Shown piece by piece: positions 4,355-43,492 of a stretch of 64,000 nt of DNA. The stretch comes from Streptomyces solicavernae (lineage in GTDB: Bacteria > Actinomycetota > Actinomycetes > Streptomycetales > Streptomycetaceae): positions 310,001-374,000 of the forward strand of contig NZ_JASCIR010000001.1 in assembly GCF_029968095.1 (NCBI RefSeq), given 5' to 3'. Each line of letters opens with the position of its first letter. Position 1 is the stretch's first letter. The notes below the pieces were generated by a model. It made no database searches. It saw only the letters and a list, made by a program, of their open reading frames with translations, and was not told the origin of the DNA. Made by a program: the position numbers and the translations under genes.

Positions 4355-5005
4355 ATGCCATCCGCCGTGCAGGTCCCGCCGGACAAGTGCGCCTTCGACC
4401 ACGCCGCGACGCGTCGCAACTGGCAGCGGGCGCGGCTGCGGGCGGGCGCCATGCTCCCCCTGGTCGTCCTGCTGCTGCTCGCCACCCTCACCGTGATGGG
4501 GCTGCTCGGCGACCGGCACGGCTCGCCCCCGATGTGGATGCGCATCGCCGGGTTCGTGTGCCTGGTGGCGGCGCCGTTCGTGTTCGCGGCCGCCCTGTAC
4601 TCGCTCGGGCCGGTGCTGCGGCTGCGCCGGATCCGCCGGGTGCTCCGCGAGTACCCGTGGGAGTACCGCGCCGCCGTACGCCCCTGCCCCGGCGTCAAGG
4701 ACGTGATGGCGCTGCCCGTGCAGCTGCGGACGGAGCCCGGCGGTGCGTGGTCCAAGGCGATGCGCGCGATCAACCCGCTGCAGCGCAAGCGCTGGTCGGG
4801 CGCGATGGAGCAGGGGGCGTGGTTCGCGGGCGACCCGGAGTTCGGCGGGGTGATCGCCGAGCCGGGCGGCCGGGAGCTGATGACCCTTGAGCGCGGCAGC
4901 CGTACGCCCCTGGAGGAGTACCGGGCGATCACCCGCGACACGGACCGGATCGCCCGCGCGAAGCGGGCGGGGCTGGCTTCCCTCGGCGCGGGGCTGCGGG
5001 GCTGA
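4355..5005 (+). CDS. Two-TM membrane protein, member 1 of a tandem paralogous trio
   Basis: The 216-aa protein has two hydrophobic segments (about residues 30-52 and 64-86) separated by a short loop, then a cytosolic-looking C-terminal domain. It shares with the next two genes an N-terminal CAFDHAATRRNW-like block (FDDPGTR-W in the others), an Arg-rich stretch after TM2, a central variable region, an RxW-SGAMEQGAWF segment and a C-terminal GGRELMTL. This is the most diverged copy. No family is recognised. AGGAG lies about 10 bp before the ATG. Confidence 0.8.
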   Translation: MPSAVQVPPDKCAFDHAATRRNWQRARLRAGAMLPLVVLLLLATLTVMGLLGDRHGSPPMWMRIAGFVCLVAAPFVFAAALYSLGPVLRLRRIRRVLREYPWEYRAAVRPCPGVKDVMALPVQLRTEPGGAWSKAMRAINPLQRKRWSGAMEQGAWFAGDPEFGGVIAEPGGRELMTLERGSRTPLEEYRAITRDTDRIARAKRAGLASLGAGLRG

Positions 5006-5077
5006 ACGCACGACGGCCCGCCGTCCCCGTACGACGTATTGCGGTTCTGGAAGAAGAAAAAACGACACGGAGTATGT

Positions 5078-5692
5078 ATGCACACGCAGGTCGCCCCGCC
5101 GTTGACACGGTCCGCGTTCGACGACCCCGGGACCCGGGCGCACTGGACGCGGGCGTTCCGCCTGACGCTCACCAACTTGCTGGTCAGGGCCGCCGTTTGG
5201 GTGGCGCTCCTGGTCACGGCCAAGGTGGCGGAGGACGACGCGATCGCCGGGCCGGCGTCTCTCCTCTCCATGATCACGGCGTTCCTGCTGATCCTGCCGT
5301 CGATCAAGCTGCGGTGGCTGCTCATGGTGGGCAGGGTCCTCAAGTCGGGTCCCTGGCAGGCCTGTTCGGCGGTGCTCCGCAACGACGTCAAGCGGCAGAA
5401 CGGCAAGGCCGTGGAGGTGCGGTTCGACGACGCGTACGAGGACAGCGGCCGCGCGGAGCCCGTCGGGGGCGGCTCGACCGTGCTGGGGAAGGACTCGGGC
5501 GCGCCGGGGAAGGGCGGCGCGGCAACCGTCGGCGAGGGCGCGAGGCTGCTCCGCGCCCGCACCTGGCGGAGCCGCATCCGCTGGTCCGACGAGCTGACCG
5601 AGGGGGCCTGGGTGGTGGTCGACGACCCGCGCCTGCCCGGCGTCCTGGCCCGGCCGGGCGGCTCCGGCTTCATGACCCTGCACGGCTCCTGA
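5078..5692 (+). CDS. Two-TM membrane protein, member 2 of the trio
   Basis: I place the start at the ATG at 5078, five bases after GGAG, rather than an upstream TTG at 5039 that would add a Lys-rich extension. The 204-aa protein carries TM segments near residues 33-52 and 60-80, the motif RSAFDDPGTRAHWTRAFRLT, then GRVLKSGPWQACSAV, a Gly/Asp-rich variable insert (about 120-155), RTWRSRIRWSDE and PGGSGFMTLHG. It is clearly paralogous to the following gene, which shares RVLKSGPW. The three genes lie head-to-tail with gaps of 72 and 27 bp and are probably one operon. Function is unknown. Confidence 0.82.
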   Translation: MHTQVAPPLTRSAFDDPGTRAHWTRAFRLTLTNLLVRAAVWVALLVTAKVAEDDAIAGPASLLSMITAFLLILPSIKLRWLLMVGRVLKSGPWQACSAVLRNDVKRQNGKAVEVRFDDAYEDSGRAEPVGGGSTVLGKDSGAPGKGGAATVGEGARLLRARTWRSRIRWSDELTEGAWVVVDDPRLPGVLARPGGSGFMTLHGS

Positions 5693-5719
5693 TCCACACC
5701 ACCCACAGAAGGAGCATGC

Positions 5720-6283
5720 GTGAAGACGCAGGCCCCCCTGCCCATGACCAAGTACGCGTTCGACGACCCGGGCACGCGGGAGGCGTGGACCAAGGGGTTC
5801 CGGGTGACGCTCGTCAACTTCCTTGTCCGGGCCGTCATATGGGTCGGTCTGCTGATCACGGCGATGGTCGGGCCCGACCGGGACGGCAGTCAGGTAGTCA
5901 CCGGTCTCGCGGCCTTCCTCTCGATGGTCACCGCCTTCCTGCTGATCCGTCCGGCGCGCAAGCTCCAGTGGCAGCTGCTCGTGGCCCGCGTACTCAAGTC
6001 CGGCCCGTGGCGCGGCTGTACGGCGGTCCGCAGGCCGGACGTGAAGGTGCCGTCGGGGCTGCCGGTCGAGGTGTCGGCCGGGGCGGGCGGCGATGACGCC
6101 GGGGACGGCCCGGTCGGCAAGGAGTCGCGGGTGCTGTCCGCGCGGACCTGGCGGCGCCGGGTGCCGTGGTCGGAGGAGGCGGCGCAGGAGTCGTGGGTCG
6201 TGACGAGCGAGGACCCCCGGCTGCCCTCCGTGCTGGCCCGGCGCGGCGGCTTCGACCCGGTGACACTGCACCGGGTGCGCTGA
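5720..6283 (+). CDS. Two-TM membrane protein, member 3 of the trio
   Basis: The 187-aa protein starts at a GTG preceded by AAGGAG. It shares KYAFDDPGTREAWTKGFRVT, two TM segments (about residues 32-50 and 60-78), RVLKSGPWRGC, RTWRRRVPWSEEAAQESWVV and FDPVTLHRV with the preceding gene. The central region between the Cys of PWRGC and RTWRRR is shorter and differs strongly, suggesting that the outer blocks are the conserved core and the middle is free to vary. The gene sits 27 bp after member 2. The C-terminal domain could be a cytosolic ligand-binding or interaction module, but nothing specific can be claimed. Confidence 0.82.
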   Translation: MKTQAPLPMTKYAFDDPGTREAWTKGFRVTLVNFLVRAVIWVGLLITAMVGPDRDGSQVVTGLAAFLSMVTAFLLIRPARKLQWQLLVARVLKSGPWRGCTAVRRPDVKVPSGLPVEVSAGAGGDDAGDGPVGKESRVLSARTWRRRVPWSEEAAQESWVVTSEDPRLPSVLARRGGFDPVTLHRVR

Positions 6284-34639: not shown

Positions 34640-35008
34640 AAGGCGACCGATGGTTCAACAGCGACCATCTTTACTAGGCCAATGGCACACTACGGCCGTG
34701 CCTCGCTCAGCCGCAGCAGAACCAACGGACCAGCTCACGGTTCACCGTCGAGGTTCAGGATCCGATCGACGTCTACATGGTGCGACGGCCGGGTGCGGGT
34801 GCCCTCGGAACGTGAGGAGGATTGCGGCCCCAAGTACGTCCAGTACGAGGGCGATCCGGGCGCACTCCCCCAGCCTTCGGCCGGGGACCCCCAGAGCACG
34901 CTCCCCCAACGCCCCAACGCCCCAACGGAAACGCGGGAGTTGGGGGTGGCTGTAGCCTTCGGCAGTCGGCAGCACCAGGGATGCGGGCTGTTTCAAGGAG
35001 CGGTGTAA
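34640..35008. other. Intergenic region with REP-like palindrome
   Basis: This 370-bp region between FUSC and the STAND gene has lower GC in its left part and no supportable gene. At 34865-34896 it holds CTCCCCCAGCCTTCGGCC followed by GGGGACCCCC, a form of the palindromic CTCCCCCAGCCTTCGGC element that recurs in Streptomyces genomes. It is followed by ACGCCCCA repeats. The RBS AAGGAG of the STAND gene is at 34995-35000. Confidence 0.6.
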
Positions 35009-38000
35009 GTGACCGGCAGGCGGGTCGTCGCAGTCGTCGTGCTCACTGTCGCTACGGGTGTCGCGGCGGCTCTGGCGGCGCTGGCGGGCAATGCGGCAAG
35101 TTCCCAGGAGCGCTGGCCAGGCGTTTTGGACGTGCTGCGTCGGCACCCGTGGCCGTCGCTGCTGGTGCTCACCTTTCTGGTCGTGGTGGCTGGTGTGGCG
35201 TTGTTCTGGGCGCAGGACCGTCCGGCTGCGGGGGCGGACGATCCGCCTCCTCCGCCGCCCGCGCAGGTGCCTGGCTGGGTGGTCGACAGGGCGGAGAGCG
35301 CCCGGGCCGTGGCTGCGGTGTGCGGAACGAGGCGCGGTGCAGTGGGCATCACCACGGCGCTGGAGGGTGCGGGCGGGTTCGGCAAGACCACGCTGGCCGG
35401 CGTGGTGTGTGCCGCTCCCCGGGTACGGCGGCGTTTTCGGGGCCGGGTGTATCTCATCACCCTGGGCCGGGAGGTGCGCGGGCGGGCCGCGATTGCCGCG
35501 AAGGTCGCCGAGGCCACGGAGTTCATCACCGGAGACACCCGCACCTTCACCGACCCGCAGGCGGCCGGGGCCCATCTGGGGCGGCTTCTGGGCCAGCGGC
35601 GGCGTACCCTGCTGGTCCTCGACGACGTCTGGACGCCCGAGCAACTGGCCCCATTCCTGATCGGGGGCAGCCGGTGTGTGCGGCTGGTGACCACACGCGT
35701 TCCCTCCGTGCTGCCGCCCGGGGCGGCGCGTATCCGGATCGATGAGATGTCACCCGCCCAGGCCCGGCAGGTGCTGACCTGGAACTTGCCGGGCCTGCCT
35801 GAGGAAGTGGTCCAGGGCCTGTTGCGCGTGACTGGGCAGTGGGCGCTGCTGCTGCGCCAGGTCAACCGGCTGCTCGCGCGGGAAGTGGCCACCGGGGTCG
35901 CAGCGGCCGATGCCGGCCGGGACGTGCTGCGGCGGCTGGGGCAGCACGGGCCGACAGCAGCGGACGACCCGGGCACGGCGCTGGACCTGGACGACCCGCA
36001 GCAACGGGCCAAGGCGGTCCGGGCGACCGTCGAGGCCGCCACCACCCTCCTGCCCGCCGGCGGGTACCAGCGCTTCGCCGAGCTGGGTGTGTTCGCCGAG
36101 GACGAGGCCATCCCCGTCTCGCTGGTCGCCCGGCTGTGGCAGGCCACCGGCGCCCTCACCGCGGCCGAAGCCCGGCAGCTGTGCCGCACCCTGGACGAGC
36201 TGTCCCTGCTCACCCTCACCCCGGCAGTCGGCGGCACGGTCAGCCTGCACGACGTCATCCGCGACTATCTGCGCGGGGAACTCGGCCCCACCCGCCTGGC
36301 CGCCCTGCACACCGCCCTGGTGGACACGGTCGAAGCCGGTCTGCCCCCGGCCGACCCGCTCGCGCCCTCGGCGCCACGGCCCGGCGCCGCCTGGTGGACG
36401 CTGCCCGACGGCTACCTGTCCGATCACCTCATCGCCCACCTGCTCGCCGCAGGCCGCTCAGCCCAAGCCGAAGCCGTCGCCGGCGATCTGCGCTGGGTGG
36501 AGACCCGGCTGCACCAGCGCGGCCCCACTGCCCCCTGGTCCGACCTGGATCAGATACCCACCCCCACCGCGGCCTCCCGGGCCCGCGACCTCGCCCGGAT
36601 CGGCCATTTCCTCGCCCCGACCGAACCCGCCCACCTGTTGACCGCCGTCCTGTACAACCGCCTGGAGCCAGTGGCCGACTGGCACGACCAGGTGACCGCC
36701 CGGCAGGACCAGTCCGGCCAGGCGACCCTGACCAACCGCTGGCCCTCACCAGACCTGGCCGACCCCGCCCTGCAGCGCACCCTGACCGGGCACACGGCCT
36801 CGGTGAGAGCGGTGGCGATCGCCCCGGACGGCACCTGGCTCGCCACCGTCGCCGACGACGGCGACCTCTTCCGCGCGGGGGAAGTGAGGATCTGGGACCG
36901 GGCCACCGGCGCCTGCACCAAGACCCTGACCGGACATACCCGCGGAGTGAATGCCGTGGCCATTGCTCCGGACGGCACCTGGCTCGCCACCGTCGGCGAC
37001 GTCAGCCTCTTCGGGCGGGGCGGTGTGCGGATCTGGGACCGGGCCACCGGCACCTGCACCGCCGGCTTGCCCGGACACATCAGCAAGGTGAGGGCGGTGG
37101 CGATCGCCCCGGACGGCACCTGGCTCGCCACCGGCAGCGGCGTCATTCCCGGGGGCGGGGAGGTGCAGATCCGGGATCAGGCCACCGGCACCCGTACTGC
37201 CAGCTTGCGCGCCGGCCCGGTGGAGGCGCTGGCGATATCCCCGGACGGCACCTGGCTCGCCACGGCCGACGGTACGACGGTACGGATCTGGGACCGGGCC
37301 ACCACCACCTGCACCCACACGCTGACCGGACACACCCGCTGGGTGCGGGACGTGGCGATTGCTCCGGACGGCACCTGGCTGGCCACCGCAGGCGATGACG
37401 GGACGGTACGGATCTGGGACGGGGCAACCGGCACCTGCACCCACACACTGACCGGAAACACCGGCAGAGTGCAGGCCGTCGCGATCGCTCCGGACGGCAC
37501 CTGGCTCGCCACCGCCAGCGGCGAGACGGTGCGGATCTGGGACCGGTCCACCGGCACCTGCACCCACACACTGACCGGACACACCGGCAGAGTGCAGGCC
37601 GTCGCGATCGCCCCGGACGGCACCTGGCTCGCCACTGGAGGTGACGACAGAACCGTGCGGATCTGGGACCGGCCCGCGAGCAGTGCCGCCGCTGCGGGAC
37701 GCTCCCACAGGGTGGATGTGGTGGCGGTTGCTCCGGACGGCACCTGGCTGGCCACCGCAGGCGATGACGGGACGGTACGGATCTGGGACGGGGCAACCGG
37801 CACCTGCACCCACACGCTGACCGGACACACCGGCAGAGTGCAGGCCGTCGCGATCGCTCCGGACGGCACCTGGCTCGCCACCGCCAGCGGCGAGACGGTG
37901 CGGATCTGGGACCGGTCCACCGGCACCTCCACCCGCACCCTGACCGGACACACCAGCGAAGTGCAGGCCGTCGCGATCGCTCCGGACGGCACCTGGCTCG

Positions 38001-38689
38001 CCACCGCCAGCGGCGAGACGGTGCGGCCCGTGAACCTCAGCAGGACCAGGAGGGGAGACCTCCCACCCGGCGGGGTGCTGCGGACCACGGACCGAGACGC
38101 CGAACGCGGCGAGATCGTTACTCCCGGGGAGGTGCGGATCTGGGACCGGGCCACCGGCGCCTGCACCAACACGCTGATCGGACACAGGGGCAGCATGCGG
38201 GCCGTGGCGATTGCCCCGGACGGCACCTGGCTCGCCGCCCTCATCAATTCGGCGGTGTGGATCTGGGACCGGGCCACCGGCACCCGCACCGACACCCTTG
38301 GATACAACGGCAGTGTGGATGCCATGGCCCTTGCTCCGGACGGCACCTGGCTCGCCACCATCGGCCACGGCTATGACCTTTCCCGTGAGGAGAGAGTGCA
38401 GATCTGGGACCGGGCCTCCGGCATCTGCACCCACACCCTGACCGGACACACCGGCAGAGTGCAGGCCGTGGCGATCGCCCCGGACGGCACCAGGCTGGCC
38501 ACGACCGGCAGCGACGGGACGGTGCGGATCTGGGACTGGGCACTGGAACACCCTGTCGTCCAGGTACGGACGGACGACTCTCCGGCCGCCTGCGCCTGGA
38601 CTCCCGAGGGCCGAGGCTTGATAGTCGGCGGCGCTCAAGGACTGTATTTCTACGACTTCCGTCCCGGGGCACCCACTCACGGCCATTGA
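35009..38689 (+). CDS. Membrane-anchored STAND/NB-ARC ATPase with ~14 WD40 repeats
   Basis: The 1226-aa protein starts at a GTG eight bases after AAGGAG. Residues about 5-27 and 49-68 are two TM helices joined by a short loop, then a Pro-run (78-84). An NB-ARC/AP-ATPase follows: P-loop GAGGFGKTTLAG (about 120-131), Walker B LLVLDDVW (201-208), sensor RLVTTR (225-230), then winged-helix and helical arm regions (about 250-585), including ELGVFAEDEAIP and SLHDVIRDYLRGEL. From about 589 to the C-terminus there are thirteen clear WD40 blades of the form TLTGHT-V-AVAIAPDGTWLAT-VRIWDRATG plus one degenerate last blade, enough for two seven-bladed propellers as in Apaf-1. Blade 10 carries an insert of about 35 residues. 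Such proteins are signal-responsive switches; ligand, effector and role here are unknown. Confidence 0.9.
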   Translation: MTGRRVVAVVVLTVATGVAAALAALAGNAASSQERWPGVLDVLRRHPWPSLLVLTFLVVVAGVALFWAQDRPAAGADDPPPPPPAQVPGWVVDRAESARAVAAVCGTRRGAVGITTALEGAGGFGKTTLAGVVCAAPRVRRRFRGRVYLITLGREVRGRAAIAAKVAEATEFITGDTRTFTDPQAAGAHLGRLLGQRRRTLLVLDDVWTPEQLAPFLIGGSRCVRLVTTRVPSVLPPGAARIRIDEMSPAQARQVLTWNLPGLPEEVVQGLLRVTGQWALLLRQVNRLLAREVATGVAAADAGRDVLRRLGQHGPTAADDPGTALDLDDPQQRAKAVRATVEAATTLLPAGGYQRFAELGVFAEDEAIPVSLVARLWQATGALTAAEARQLCRTLDELSLLTLTPAVGGTVSLHDVIRDYLRGELGPTRLAALHTALVDTVEAGLPPADPLAPSAPRPGAAWWTLPDGYLSDHLIAHLLAAGRSAQAEAVAGDLRWVETRLHQRGPTAPWSDLDQIPTPTAASRARDLARIGHFLAPTEPAHLLTAVLYNRLEPVADWHDQVTARQDQSGQATLTNRWPSPDLADPALQRTLTGHTASVRAVAIAPDGTWLATVADDGDLFRAGEVRIWDRATGACTKTLTGHTRGVNAVAIAPDGTWLATVGDVSLFGRGGVRIWDRATGTCTAGLPGHISKVRAVAIAPDGTWLATGSGVIPGGGEVQIRDQATGTRTASLRAGPVEALAISPDGTWLATADGTTVRIWDRATTTCTHTLTGHTRWVRDVAIAPDGTWLATAGDDGTVRIWDGATGTCTHTLTGNTGRVQAVAIAPDGTWLATASGETVRIWDRSTGTCTHTLTGHTGRVQAVAIAPDGTWLATGGDDRTVRIWDRPASSAAAAGRSHRVDVVAVAPDGTWLATAGDDGTVRIWDGATGTCTHTLTGHTGRVQAVAIAPDGTWLATASGETVRIWDRSTGTSTRTLTGHTSEVQAVAIAPDGTWLATASGETVRPVNLSRTRRGDLPPGGVLRTTDRDAERGEIVTPGEVRIWDRATGACTNTLIGHRGSMRAVAIAPDGTWLAALINSAVWIWDRATGTRTDTLGYNGSVDAMALAPDGTWLATIGHGYDLSREERVQIWDRASGICTHTLTGHTGRVQAVAIAPDGTRLATTGSDGTVRIWDWALEHPVVQVRTDDSPAACAWTPEGRGLIVGGAQGLYFYDFRPGAPTHGH

Positions 38690-38786
38690 CCCGTGATCCG
38701 TGGCAGCCGACGGCGTGGCCGGCGCGACGGGCGAAGCGGTCACCGACGGCGTCGGCTCGGTGCGATGTTCCCGCTGCCCGACCGAC

Positions 38787-38893
38787 GGGCCAGCGGGCCA
38801 GCGGGCCAGCGGGCCAGCGGACCGATGGACCGGCGGACCGGCGGACCGGCGGACCGGCGGACCGGCGGACCGGCGGACCGGCGGACCGGCGGA
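38787..38893. repeat. 8-bp minisatellite abutting the M23 peptidase stop
   Basis: Four GGGCCAGC units are followed by one GGACCGAT and eight GGACCGGC units. The array ends at the base before the stop codon of the minus-strand peptidase gene. It fills most of the 204-bp gap after the STAND gene. Confidence 0.9.
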
Positions 38894-39817
38894 CTAGATG
38901 CGGATCCCGCGCTTCGCCAGGTACGTGATCGGGTTGATATCGGACCCGTAGCCGCGGCGGGCGCGGATCTCCAGGTGCAGGTGGGGGCCGGTGGAGCGGC
39001 CGGTGTTGCCGCTGTCGGCGATGCGCTGCCCGGCGTGGACACGTCCGCCGTCCTTCACTCGGATCCGGGACAGATGGGCGTAGATCGAGTACCGCCCGTC
39101 CCGCATCTTGATCGTCACCGCCTTGCCGTACGCACCGGACCGGCGGGCCAGGACGACGACGCCCGCGGCGACCGAGTACACGGGGGTGCCCTGCGGCACG
39201 GCCAGGTCGACCCCGGTGTGGTAGCCCGCGAGCCAGTCGCCGCGGACGCGGTAGCCCGTGGTGATGCGGTAGCTGCGGGTCAGCGGGCGGGCATAGGGGC
39301 GGCCCATCGCGGGGGCGCCCGCGGCCTCGGGCCCTGCGGCGGACTCGCCGGGGCACAGCGCGCGCCCCTCGGTCCAGCGCCCGGCGCCGCCGCCGGTCCA
39401 GGACCAGGGTCCGGTGGGTGCGGTCTCGCGGGCCCAGTCCGTGCCCCGGCCCGGCGCCGGCCAGCCGCCCTGCCGGTCCTGCCCCGCGGGTTCGGCGCAG
39501 GCGCCCACGAGGCCGGGGTCGCGCAGGTCCGTCCCGGTCAGCCCGAACCGGGACTCGTCGACGGCGGCGAGCAGTTCCTCGTACTCCTGGTCGTAGAACG
39601 CGCTGCACCCTCCGGTCAGGGCGGCGTCGGCCGGGTCGAGCAGGGCGCTCTCGGGGACCGGCAGGCGGAAGCCGGTCAGGGCGCCGCCGCCGAAGAGCCC
39701 GGCCACCAGGCCGAGCGCCCGCCGGCGGGTCGCGTTCGGGGCAGCGGGGCGGGCGCCCGGGGTGGCCGGGGCCGGCCGCTGCGCGGTGCTGCTGTCTTCG
39801 CTCACCTCGTCAGCCAT
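38894..39817 (-). CDS. M23-family metallopeptidase (cell-wall endopeptidase), probably exported
   Basis: The 307-aa protein has RRRALGLVAGLFGGGALTGF at about residues 31-50, a twin-Arg-like exported N-terminus. The LytM/M23 domain (about 185-300) contains GYRVRGDWLAGYHTGVDL (first zinc His and Asp), GVVVLARRSGAYGKAVTIKM, YAHLSRIRV, and TGPHLHLEIR (HxH ligand pair). It would cleave peptidoglycan peptide cross-links. The middle region (about 60-180) is Gly/Pro/Trp-rich with no domain recognised. A 274-bp divergent region separates it from the Lrp/AsnC-type regulator. Confidence 0.88.
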   Translation of the reverse strand: MADEVSEDSSTAQRPAPATPGARPAAPNATRRRALGLVAGLFGGGALTGFRLPVPESALLDPADAALTGGCSAFYDQEYEELLAAVDESRFGLTGTDLRDPGLVGACAEPAGQDRQGGWPAPGRGTDWARETAPTGPWSWTGGGAGRWTEGRALCPGESAAGPEAAGAPAMGRPYARPLTRSYRITTGYRVRGDWLAGYHTGVDLAVPQGTPVYSVAAGVVVLARRSGAYGKAVTIKMRDGRYSIYAHLSRIRVKDGGRVHAGQRIADSGNTGRSTGPHLHLEIRARRGYGSDINPITYLAKRGIRI

Positions 39818-39982
39818 ACGAACGAGCACAAGGGCTCCCCCGCCCTCCGTGCACGCCGACCGCCGCCGTCCGGAGGACCCGGAGCGTTCGCACACAGCCT
39901 CAGAGCGCGCCCGGGAGCGGCGTCCGTTGGCCCAGGCCGACGCTGTGGCCGTGCGCCATTGGTACATTCGCGGCGGAACATC

Positions 39983-40016
39983 GCGTCCGTACGGATCGAA
40001 TTGCGTACGGACGCAA
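39983..40016. promoter_or_regulatory. Large inverted repeat upstream of the Lrp/AsnC gene
   Basis: GCGTCCGTACG (39983-39993) and CGTACGGACGC (40004-40014) are perfect 11-bp arms around ten bases. The right part also forms a nested palindrome TTGCGT-ACGG-ACGCAA (40001-40016). It lies 76 bp before the regulator start, in the region shared with the divergent M23 gene, and is a good candidate for Lrp-type autoregulation. Confidence 0.5.
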
Positions 40017-40091
40017 GGAACGCCGCGGACGGAGCACACCGGGAGCACACCGGGAGCGCACCGTCCGGGCTGGGGCAGGAGGCCGGTCGGC

Positions 40092-40580
40092 ATGGCGGTG
40101 GACGCACTCGACACCCGTATTCTCCGGCTACTGCTTGAGCAGCCGCGCACGAGCGTGCGGGAGTACGCGCGAATCCTCGGCATCGCGCGCGGCACCCTGC
40201 AGGCGCGGCTCGACCGGCTTGAGCGGGAGGGCGTGATCACCGGGGCGGGGCCGACCCTGTCACCGGCCGCGCTCGGCCACCCGGTGTTGGCGTTCGTGCA
40301 CATCGAGGTCACCCAGGGGCACCTGGACGAGGTGGGGGACGCGCTGGCCTCGGTGCCGGAGATCATCGAGGCGTTCTCGATCACCGGGGGCGGCGATCTG
40401 CTGACCCGCGTCGCCGCCCGGGACAACGCCCACCTGGAGGACCTCATCCAGCAGCTCATCCAGCTGCCGGGCGTGGTCCGCACCCGCACCGAGGTCGCGC
40501 TGCGCGAGCGCGTCCCGCACCGGCTGCTGCCGCTGGTGGCGTCGGTGGGCGCGGCGGCGGAGCGCAGCGAGAGGCGCTGA
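40092..40580 (+). CDS. Lrp/AsnC-family transcriptional regulator
   Basis: The 162-aa protein has the AsnC HTH (LDTRILRLLLEQPRTSVREYARILGIARGTLQARLDRLEREGVI) at residues 5-50 and an RAM ligand domain (FVHIEVTQGHLDEVGDALASVPEIIEAFSITGGGDLLTRVAARDNAHLEDLIQQLIQLPGVVRTRTEVAL). Proteins of this type respond to amino acids. AGGAGG precedes the ATG. A 27-bp minisatellite begins in the bases just before its stop codon and continues downstream. Confidence 0.92.
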   Translation: MAVDALDTRILRLLLEQPRTSVREYARILGIARGTLQARLDRLEREGVITGAGPTLSPAALGHPVLAFVHIEVTQGHLDEVGDALASVPEIIEAFSITGGGDLLTRVAARDNAHLEDLIQQLIQLPGVVRTRTEVALRERVPHRLLPLVASVGAAAERSERR

Positions 40581-40713
40581 GCCACCGGCCACCGCGAGCA
40601 GCACAGAGCCACCGGCCACCGCGAGCAGCACAGAGCCACCGGCCACCGCGAGCAGCACAGAGCCACCGGCCACCGCGAGCAGCACAGAGCCACCGGCCAC
40701 CGCGAGAAGCGCC
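40579..40713. repeat. 27-bp tandem repeat starting at the Lrp stop codon
   Basis: Five units of a 27-bp sequence beginning GAGCCACCGGCCACCGCGAG start at 40579, 40606, 40633, 40660 and 40687. They are identical except at the end of the last one. The first unit includes the TGA stop of the regulator gene, so the array sits exactly at the gene end. Confidence 0.92.
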
Positions 40714-40743
40714 GACCCACCGGGCCTTGGCATGCTGGGACGC

Positions 40744-41481: not shown

Positions 41482-42629
41482 CGGGACGGGAACGGGGACG
41501 GAGACGGGGACGGGGACGGGGACGGGGACGGGGACGGGGACGTGACCGGACCGCTCCGTCGGTCCGCGGAGGACTGACCAGGCGTCAGAAAGCGCGGGAA
41601 TCCGGGTTCGACGACGGGGCGCAGGACACGGCGGACCGGCGCGCTGGACAGCAGCAAGGTCAGGGCGACGCCGAACACCGCGAGCGCCGGCAGCGCCGCC
41701 GCGCCGAGCCTGCCGACCAGGTCGTACGCCCCGTACACCTGCCCGGCCTGGACGAGGAGGCCGTGCACCAGGAACGGGAACATGGTCGCCGCGCCGAGTG
41801 CCGTGAACACGGTGCGCCGGGCCGGGACCAGCGCGAGGAACGCCACGGTCAGCGTGGCCGACACGGCGAACAGGCCGAGCCGGATCGCGAGGTACGTCAG
41901 GGAACCGGTGTGCAGCTCGGCGTTGTTGGCGCGCATGTAGAGCCAGTTGGCGTTGAGGTGCGGCGCGACGGCGTACGCGAGGCCGAGCGCGGTGAGCAGC
42001 ACCGGCGGGGCCAGGCAGCGGACCGCCCGGGTGCGGAGCCGGTGGAAGTGCTCGGGGCGGAGCCGCAGTCCGAGGACGAACCAGGGCAGGAACATCAGGA
42101 CGCGGGGCAGGGCGAGTTCGTAGCCGATGCCGGTGAGGCCGGCGGCGAGCGAGATCAGCACGGCCACGGCGACCGGGTACCGCACGGCCCGCCACACGGG
42201 CGCGGTGATGCGCCACAGGAAGAGCGCGACCAGGAACCACAGGAGGTAGACGGGTTCGGTCGGCGTGAGGGAGAACGGGGCGTCGTAGAGCAGGGTCTGC
42301 AGCGCCTTGTAGGCGACGGTGAACAGCAGGTACGGCGCGAGTACGCGGGCGAGCAGGGCCCTGATCTGCGGTCCGGTGCCGGTGAATCCGCGGGAGAAGA
42401 GACCGCAGAGCAGCACGAAGGCCGGCATGTGGAACAGGTAGACGACGGTGTACGCGGCCTTGGCGGTGTCCATGTCCCGTACGAGTGCGGCCCAGTTGTG
42501 GCCGATGACGACCAGGACGACGAGCAGGAACTTGGCGTTGTCGAAGAAGGGGTCGCGTCCCGTCGGGGGGTGCGGGTCGGCGCGGGCGCGGTGGCGGCGC
42601 AGGGGCTGGAGCGTGGTGGAGAGGGTCAC
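41445..42629 (-). CDS. Acyltransferase-3 family membrane protein with Ser-Pro tail
   Basis: The 394-aa protein starts at a GTG (complement at 42627-42629). It has about ten TM helices and the acyltransferase-3 signature FFDNAKFLLVVLVVIGHNWAALV with the conserved His, then VVYLFHMPAFVLLCGLFSRGF and YLLWFLVALFLWRI. These enzymes O-acylate sugars or other hydroxyl groups at the membrane. The C-terminus ends in about eight Ser-Pro repeats encoded by a GACGGG hexanucleotide array (41482-41545), reading into sequence complementary to the end of the HAD gene. The Ser-Pro tail is likely a recent expansion. Confidence 0.85.
   Translation of the reverse strand: MTLSTTLQPLRRHRARADPHPPTGRDPFFDNAKFLLVVLVVIGHNWAALVRDMDTAKAAYTVVYLFHMPAFVLLCGLFSRGFTGTGPQIRALLARVLAPYLLFTVAYKALQTLLYDAPFSLTPTEPVYLLWFLVALFLWRITAPVWRAVRYPVAVAVLISLAAGLTGIGYELALPRVLMFLPWFVLGLRLRPEHFHRLRTRAVRCLAPPVLLTALGLAYAVAPHLNANWLYMRANNAELHTGSLTYLAIRLGLFAVSATLTVAFLALVPARRTVFTALGAATMFPFLVHGLLVQAGQVYGAYDLVGRLGAAALPALAVFGVALTLLLSSAPVRRVLRPVVEPGFPRFLTPGQSSADRRSGPVTSPSPSPSPSPSPSPSPFPSRQDSAREASSQS
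41482..41545. repeat. Hexanucleotide GACGGG array inside the acyltransferase 3' end
   Basis: About ten GACGGG/GACGGGG-type units begin directly after the HAD stop at 41481. On the minus strand they encode Ser-Pro dipeptides of the acyltransferase tail. Confidence 0.88.
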
Positions 42630-43203: not shown

Positions 43204-43293
43204 AAGTCATACGTGTAGCTCTTCGGCCACCGTCGGTCCGCGACCGTCACCCGGCTGGCGCGTGTCGCCGCGGCGGGCAGCGAGGCCGTCGGA

Positions 43294-43356
43294 GCTGCCG
43301 AAGCTGCCGAAGCTGCCGAAGCTGCCGAAGCTGCCGAAGCTGCCGAAGCTGCCGAA
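43294..43356. repeat. 9-bp GCTGCCGAA tandem repeat
   Basis: Seven consecutive GCTGCCGAA units from 43294 to 43356, in the 377-bp divergent region between the inhibitor and the dehydrogenase. A minus-strand frame here would read Phe-Gly-Ser repeats but has no other coding support. Confidence 0.9.
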
Positions 43357-43492
43357 GCGCAGTGCCTGCAGGTCAGGCACCAACGCCCTCCGCACGGCAC
43401 CCCGTTACCCGGAACGGGTACCTTCCCCGGCAGGCCGCCGGTCCCCCGATGTCCGGCGGCCTCGGAGAAGTATGGCCTCAGCAGGGACCGAG

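Follow-up and report, generated by a model that had tools for sequence, protein, structure and literature searches.

A mobile single-gene NB-ARC-WD40 protein of Streptomyces with a predicted membrane hairpin: a candidate death or defence switch

Introduction

What is the function of a solitary bacterial gene whose product is laid out like Apaf-1 behind two predicted membrane helices, and which part of the protein acts as its effector? The question is raised by a 64,000-nucleotide stretch of Streptomyces solicavernae DNA (contig NZ_JASCIR010000001.1, positions 310,001 to 374,000; hereafter the window), in which an open reading frame (ORF) at 35009..38689 on the + strand encodes 1226 amino acids in the order two transmembrane (TM) helices, NB-ARC, winged helix, APAF1_C-like domain and 14 WD40 blades. 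An initial annotation had proposed an ATPase of the STAND (signal transduction ATPases with numerous domains) class, with the membrane helices as effector or tether and the propellers as sensor, possibly serving defence or programmed death. We consider it moderately probable that the protein is a self-contained, membrane-acting death or defence switch of the NOD-like receptor (NLR) type, with propellers that would sense a ligand and a hairpin predicted to be membrane-active. More tentatively, and with rather less confidence, we propose a mobile one-gene innate-immune receptor of filamentous actinobacteria, a bacterial counterpart of Apaf-1 and of fungal HET-E, with specificity shuffled blade by blade and a swappable death module: within one clade, a pore formed by the hairpin would alternate with a prion-like motif and the separate effector gene that goes with it.

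STAND-WD40 ATPases, highly repetitive bacterial WD40 proteins, amyloid-linked bacterial NLRs and fast-evolving fungal WD40 NLRs were already known. WD repeats in NLRs of multicellular bacteria have been mentioned (PMC9815663). What appears new is a single-gene mobile receptor of actinobacteria in which a conserved hairpin alternates with an amyloid-type motif and a partner; we found no description of it in the excerpts of the open-licence literature searched. If the proposal is correct, one transferable gene of a genetically tractable bacterium combines a receptor shaped like Apaf-1 with the specificity for its ligand and the module that kills, and both the targets of changing propellers in multicellular bacteria and death by a two-helix hairpin alone become testable.

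Results

The ORF begins with GTG, has AAGGAG 8 bases upstream and contains no internal stop. In another Streptomyces genome, G104, a near copy of the gene retains the N-terminal 92 residues at 89% identity, so the start of the 1226-amino-acid frame is sound; the database prediction of the same protein (P0003) begins 111 residues later, which looks like a mis-called start. A promoter and terminator scan found nothing. All features given below lie on the + strand.

The NB-ARC domain spans residues 85-324 (35261..35980), with a Pfam match at 116-234 (E 9e-12) and structural matches over about 80-324. As initially annotated, its P-loop GAGGFGKT (residues 120-127, 35366..35389), Walker B motif LLVLDDVW (201-208, 35609..35632) and TTR sensor (228-230, 35690..35698) are intact, and to these we add the H-D pair of LHD in the winged helix (414-415, 36248..36253), which we take to be an MHD-like motif. 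The P-loop residues except A121, D205, D206 and W208 of Walker B, TTR, and H414-D415 were invariant in 14 of 14 and 40 of 40 aligned proteins; because 27 of the 40 had been retrieved by P-loop and DDVW patterns, the invariance of P-loop and Walker B is fairly tested by the 14-protein set only. With the four motifs in place, the protein belongs by sequence to the AP-ATPase/NB-ARC group of STAND ATPases. Structural neighbours outside the NB-ARC ATPases were attributed to the common P-loop fold.

A helical domain follows at residues 441-588 (36329..36772). Its APAF1_C match (468-538, E 0.0017) is under the Pfam cut-off of the family, and a structural match to Apaf-1 covers the region up to residue 568; this domain and the near-identical DNA repeats described below are additions to the initial feature list. 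The window protein shares its domain order with Apaf-1 and Dark, which are among its best structural matches: NB-ARC is followed by a winged helix, a helical domain and, at the C-terminus, two WD40 propellers. It differs from them in having the predicted TM hairpin in place of CARD, no CARD family being among its Pfam matches, and 7+7 near-repetitive blades. Unlike for Apaf-1 and Dark, no caspase partner was found for the window gene.

The two N-terminal TM helices first noted were recovered both by hydropathy and in the structure model, at residues 3-29 (35015..35095) and 47-69 (35147..35215), with a model confidence (predicted local distance difference test) of only about 57-77. The loop between them together with the helix ends (residues 28-48, 35090..35152) follows a pattern, N-A-A-T..RWPG.LD.LR..PW, that is strongly conserved across 133 distinct N-termini. 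Conservation at N, A, T/S, W and partly at P, L and D is circular, these columns having been fixed by the selecting pattern; among the free residues, R at W+8 (0.98), W at W+12 (0.97) and A at N-2 (0.95) are nearly constant. Since the mean net charge is +1.7 before the first helix and about -1 after the second (59 sequences), the topology is likely N-in with a cytoplasmic ATPase, and the loop would be extracytoplasmic. All 17 matches to the hairpin alone, in a search of proteins of 0.55-1.75 times the query length, were NB-ARC proteins. Nine further NB-ARC proteins (P0121-P0129; 5 of 9 named S. albidoflavus; 1172-1186 amino acids, one of 686) have part of a window-type hairpin and few or no Pfam WD40 matches; perhaps they represent the same chassis with strongly diverged propellers.

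The family comparison drew on 101 loci, namely the window, 20 from the genus and the best 80 of 189 relatives; nine duplicates and one locus without the P-loop pattern were excluded, leaving 91 distinct genes. The 80 relatives had been picked by P-loop and DDVW patterns, and the P-loop was required again when distinct genes were chosen. All 80 were actinobacterial, most of them from genera that we take to be mycelial. By hydropathy, at least two TM helices precede the ATPase in 66 of the 91 genes, the N-termini being read from the first possible start and thus sometimes overlong. Elsewhere in the family the same N-terminal slot carries DUF4062 (L172, E 5e-17), Trypsin_2 (L159, E 1e-10), a caspase domain (L168, E 6e-38, 130.5 of 140 bits) or, in L045, L113 and L158, an amyloid-type motif of the GNTFNGP..IQ.GN.NQ..N.F kind. 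DUF4062 is a NADase in antiphage defence and occupies the CARD position of the Apaf-1-like chain in TEP1 (PMC13174449, a preprint).

In all three genes with the amyloid-type motif, the ORF directly upstream carries a similar motif at its end, and the stop of that ORF overlaps the receptor start. Bacterial amyloid signalosomes have been described with genes in this order, the motif lying at the C-terminus of BELL, a small and supposedly membrane-targeting protein, and at the N-terminus of the NLR (PMC7889193); the label given here follows motif shape and gene order. All three partner ORFs were under the TM threshold of 1.5 (1.49, 1.46 and 1.25), so they are called BELL by gene order and motif only, and two of them had no Pfam or NCBIfam match over cut-off (DUF6611 at E 0.0009, encapsulin at E 0.026). 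A DNA pattern for the motif matched in 5 of 61 genus genomes, each time with one mismatch. The window gene shares a clade of nine rows with L045, L113 and L158 (support 92, not starred), in a tree made with FastTree only and with class labels assigned by regular expression, some rows being mislabelled. Because of this common clade, the fused hairpin and the motif-plus-partner arrangement appear to replace each other within it. The small ORFs at L045 456-932, L158 5321-5875 and L113 about 5000-5860, each with the WD40 receptor gene downstream of it, may encode prion-like pairs of receptor and effector.

The simplest reading of these comparisons is that the slot holds an effector or recruits one, and that the hairpin may itself be the effector of the window gene. 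The effector, called unclear in the initial annotation, is thereby narrowed down, since the slot carries known death or defence modules in relatives. The hairpin might instead be a tether only, anchoring a sensor/ATPase that recruits, as its effector, another protein whose gene lies at a different site in the genome. Sister genes do employ a separate overlapping partner gene, the first helix is an ordinary Ala/Val/Leu-rich sequence, and some family members carry another kind of hairpin or lack one; yet the conservation of the loop exceeds what an anchor needs, the gene moves singly without a partner, and no family of neighbouring genes is shared by more than 8 of the 91 loci. We regard a mere tether as unlikely, while giving it some weight.

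Two other relatives combine modules in ways worth recording. In L172, from 5386, DUF4062 is followed by NB-ARC and 20 WD40 rows, near the layout of animal TEP1/NWD proteins. In L168, from 857 on a Micromonosporaceae contig of 3528 bases, a caspase of the EACC1-associated type is fused directly to NB-ARC and WD40, placing a protease and an apoptosome-like receptor on a single chain.

In a structure model built with 13 sequences as input, the propeller part was all-beta, with a linker of low confidence following blade 7, and from the blade alignment and this model we read it as a 7+7 arrangement: blades 1-7 at 36776..37684, and blades 8-14 with the C-terminus at 37685..38686. Thirteen blades are regular and the fourteenth is degenerate, as first counted. 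A 208-bp tract in blades 5-6 (37352..37559) recurs with 3 mismatches in blades 8-9 (37721..37928). Against the G104 copy, protein identity was 92-96% in the ATPase and helical parts and 85% in the propellers, where both dN (nonsynonymous divergence, 0.09) and dS (synonymous divergence, 0.19) were highest. Blades 6 and 9 of the window gene are 98% identical to each other in DNA and 88% identical to their positional orthologues, which shows homogenised blades and suggests recombination within the gene. Their number has changed as well. A third near copy, P0002 (92% identity over the N-terminal part; among the best 120 of 785 matches), has 12 blades, the first of which starts like window blade 1 and finishes like blade 3, which we read as the loss of precisely two blades through recombination. 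Manual counts in the near copies were 14, 14 and 12; profile counts are approximate, as the profile rows split blade 10 in two and miss blade 14. Repeat-number polymorphism and concerted evolution are thus present, as in the HET-E-type fungal NLRs. The mean internal identity of the blades is 0.68, and only the 208-bp tract (about 69 amino acids) is near-identical. The protein therefore falls short of the 0.7 cut-off of the Highly-Repetitive WD40 class and into the Moderately-Repetitive class (PMC5587647), where averaging may differ from ours, and short of the more than 85% internal identity over at least 100 amino acids of the HET-E type (PMC4986451).

Among 97 proteins with at least 8 recognised blades, the most variable of the 42 blade columns within a protein were 27, 9 and 11. 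By our own column assignment these are D-1, R1-2 and R1, the positions of top-face interaction defined by published rules (PMC3419727). These three also held the top ranks when the analysis was limited to the 32 proteins with the highest internal identity or to the 24 with middle values. The ratio of nonsynonymous to synonymous polymorphism (pN/pS) at the top-face codons, with overlapping blade pairs pooled, was 1.30 (95% interval 1.02-1.65; 43 genes, 1122 pairs) vs 0.5 elsewhere, and 1.85 (1.25-2.5; 27 genes, 317 pairs) vs 0.5 for pairs of at least 85% identity. Diversifying selection at the top face across the family is only suggested by these values.

The gene has moved on its own. Its nearest homologue, the G104 copy, is 91.4% identical in DNA over 34903-38713, and blastn and boundary alignment showed homology to end at both limits of this shared unit (34903..38713), with nothing beyond. 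The G104 relatives of the window neighbours are less alike (72-74% on the FUSC side, Lrp 86%, HAD 76%) and lie at 0.9-1.05 Mb, those of genes farther along the window (82-85%) lie at 2.05 Mb, and the gene copy is at 8.82 Mb; FUSC has a further, partial match (73%) 199 bp before Lrp. As the gene shows higher identity than the DNA around it and occupies a different place, the comparison indicates horizontal transfer as a single gene.

A check on variable presence, suggested at the outset, favoured the switch reading: 17 of 198 other genus genomes gave a strong homologue (E <1e-80), with six candidates scored per genome. Some carry more than one copy or fragmentary ones, and several of the homologues sit close to a chromosome end. 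Judged by FUSC, the closest five of the 100 other genomes searched (G021, G002, G029, G013 and G059) had generic NB-ARC matches only. Broken or fragmentary copies occur in G026 (two pieces with TGA), G104 (a frame of 249 amino acids) and G005 (172 amino acids), as would be expected of a decaying, selfish or neutral gene that expands its repeats without current function. We hold this to be very improbable: the window copy is intact, and its dN/dS against the near copy is 0.17-0.51 depending on region and 0.44 overall.

Both adjoining genes lie on the opposite strand, and the gene indeed stands alone. In the 91 loci, the commonest flank family (ABC ATPases by reading) occurred in 8, and a conserved partner gene was rejected accordingly; an ORF read as caspase-like, by eye and not by profile search, flanked the gene in 3. 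In relatives, Lrp comes after FUSC. From the 88 other genomes in which FUSC had a match, nine FUSC neighbourhoods were examined. FUSC and Lrp lay in the same piece in 6 of the 9, and no match to the gene (by blastn and tblastn) or to the M23 peptidase was found in any of them. A core housekeeping gene was rejected on this result and on the 17 of 198 genomes. A joint operon with either FUSC or the M23 peptidase was rejected because the strands are opposite and neither gene travels with this one. Cargo of an obvious transposon was rejected as well: only short repeats lie directly upstream, and the homology stops at 34903 and 38713, though no transposase search was made. The interval between FUSC and Lrp, 34661-40076 in the window, is only 212 bp in one relative (L088) and several kb in others, with genes read from their translations as metE-like, ABC-transporter-like or hydrolase-like; from these differing contents, the interval is a variable slot and not a defence island. 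Within 5 kb downstream of the gene are five short tandem arrays with units of 8, 11, 27, 6 and 9 bp (38780-38894, 40031-40063, 40579-40723, 41483-41542 and 43293-43358). In G091 (C1) and G052 (C1), homologues of equal score occupy mirrored positions close to the two chromosome ends, a pattern that terminal inverted repeats would give.

Discussion

How might such a protein work? By analogy with Apaf-1, the propellers would at rest be folded back on an ADP-bound NB-ARC domain. Their variable top faces would bind a foreign or non-self protein, perhaps one from a phage; ligand binding would lead to exchange for ATP and to assembly of an NB-ARC ring beside the membrane. The ring could gather several hairpins into a pore or disrupt the membrane in another way, and the damage would kill or arrest the hyphal compartment. 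The pore and the trigger are the weakest of these steps. As to the initial proposal of a membrane effector or tether with a propeller sensor for defence or death, the findings fit it and support it in part; two results given next, the PADLOC negative and the HaaT match, point the other way.

Several observations weigh against a defence or death switch. Not one PADLOC model matched residues 1-590 at E 0.01, and the sole full-length PADLOC match falls on the WD40 part, so the ATPase and effector regions do not correspond to known antiphage STAND proteins such as Avs, bNACHT and others in PADLOC. The neighbours of the window gene are non-defence genes, and the caspase, trypsin and DUF4062 members sit in a distant branch of the tree. 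At the top face, the 41 low-identity members rank the three positions 1, 5 and 2, with R1-2 fifth. Independent pairs gave pN/pS of 1.15 (0.91-1.5; 147 pairs) and 1.19 (0.74-2.0; 70 pairs), and the interval lies above 1 solely in the pooled set of all overlapping blade pairs. For the window gene on its own, the ratio was 0.69 vs 0.56 elsewhere, so that diversifying selection, if real, would concern the family and not this gene by itself. Diversity at such hotspots has been reported as common to highly repetitive WD40 proteins at large (PMC5587647); a variable top face therefore need not mean defence. Finally, the hairpin alone matches HaaT, a TPR (tetratricopeptide repeat) protein of clusters for ribosomally synthesised and post-translationally modified peptides (RiPPs), at E 5e-12.

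The HaaT match keeps alive a regulatory role in peptide or metabolite signalling. On this view the protein would resemble AfsR or the NB-ARC-TPR proteins found in RiPP clusters: linked to the membrane, it would regulate secondary metabolism by activating metabolite genes upon sensing a peptide or protein. HaaT (NCBIfam NF041717) shares the hairpin at 4-74 and a part up to residue 423, matching 4-423 at E 9e-14, and AfsR (E 4e-10) and FxSxx_TPR (E 1e-9) match too, all three far below their cut-offs. HaaT itself has a TPR sensor and a RiPP context where the window protein has WD40, and at 50.5 against a cut-off of 1125 bits the protein lies outside the family. No DNA-binding family was among the Pfam matches of residues 1-590, no adjoining gene family recurs often enough for a conserved cluster, the distribution is patchy and mobile, and the family includes caspase, protease, DUF4062 and amyloid-type members. 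A regulator seems to us improbable.

The closest parallel to the changing propellers is Podospora HET-D/HET-E, likewise STAND ATPases whose WD40 blades undergo recombination and differ in number. Positive selection was found there at blade codons 7, 9, 25 and 27, of which 7 and 9 flank a conserved residue of the d-a loop and 25 and 27 lie in the b-c turn (PMC1805685); by our own correspondence these are columns 9, 11, 27 and 29 here. The fungal proteins differ in having NACHT and a HET domain where the window protein has NB-ARC and a TM hairpin, and in that selection has been demonstrated for them and is only suggestive in the window family. The variable top face and blade number, as in het-d/het-e (PMC1805685), could also point to hyphal development or kin recognition, with a non-self sensor killing fused or invaded compartments in the manner of the fungal proteins. 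The restriction of the best 80 of 189 relatives to actinobacteria, mostly from genera that are presumably mycelial, agrees with such a role. Its mechanism overlaps that of the death or defence switch and differs in the trigger alone. Hyphal fusion between Streptomyces strains is not known to be a routine process; we think hyphal development or kin recognition quite improbable.

Returning to the death or defence switch, we find partial likeness to three further groups. Three NB-ARC-WD40 relatives resemble the BASS/BELL signalosomes, by pattern, in motif and overlapping upstream motif ORF; the window protein differs from them in its fused hairpin, lacking both the motif pair and a partner in the window. 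TEP1, NWD1 and NWD2 (DUF4062-NACHT-WD40) and Swarozyc resemble L172, whose DUF4062 occupies the TEP1 slot (PMC13174449), and carry a NADase domain where the window protein has a membrane hairpin. Among 2ymu and other highly repetitive WD40 proteins, the match is limited to the propeller part, the solved chain of 2ymu having 577 residues. That chain, which we take to be Nostoc Npun_R6612, is a highly repetitive double propeller and was the first match of the window propeller in both sequence and fold.

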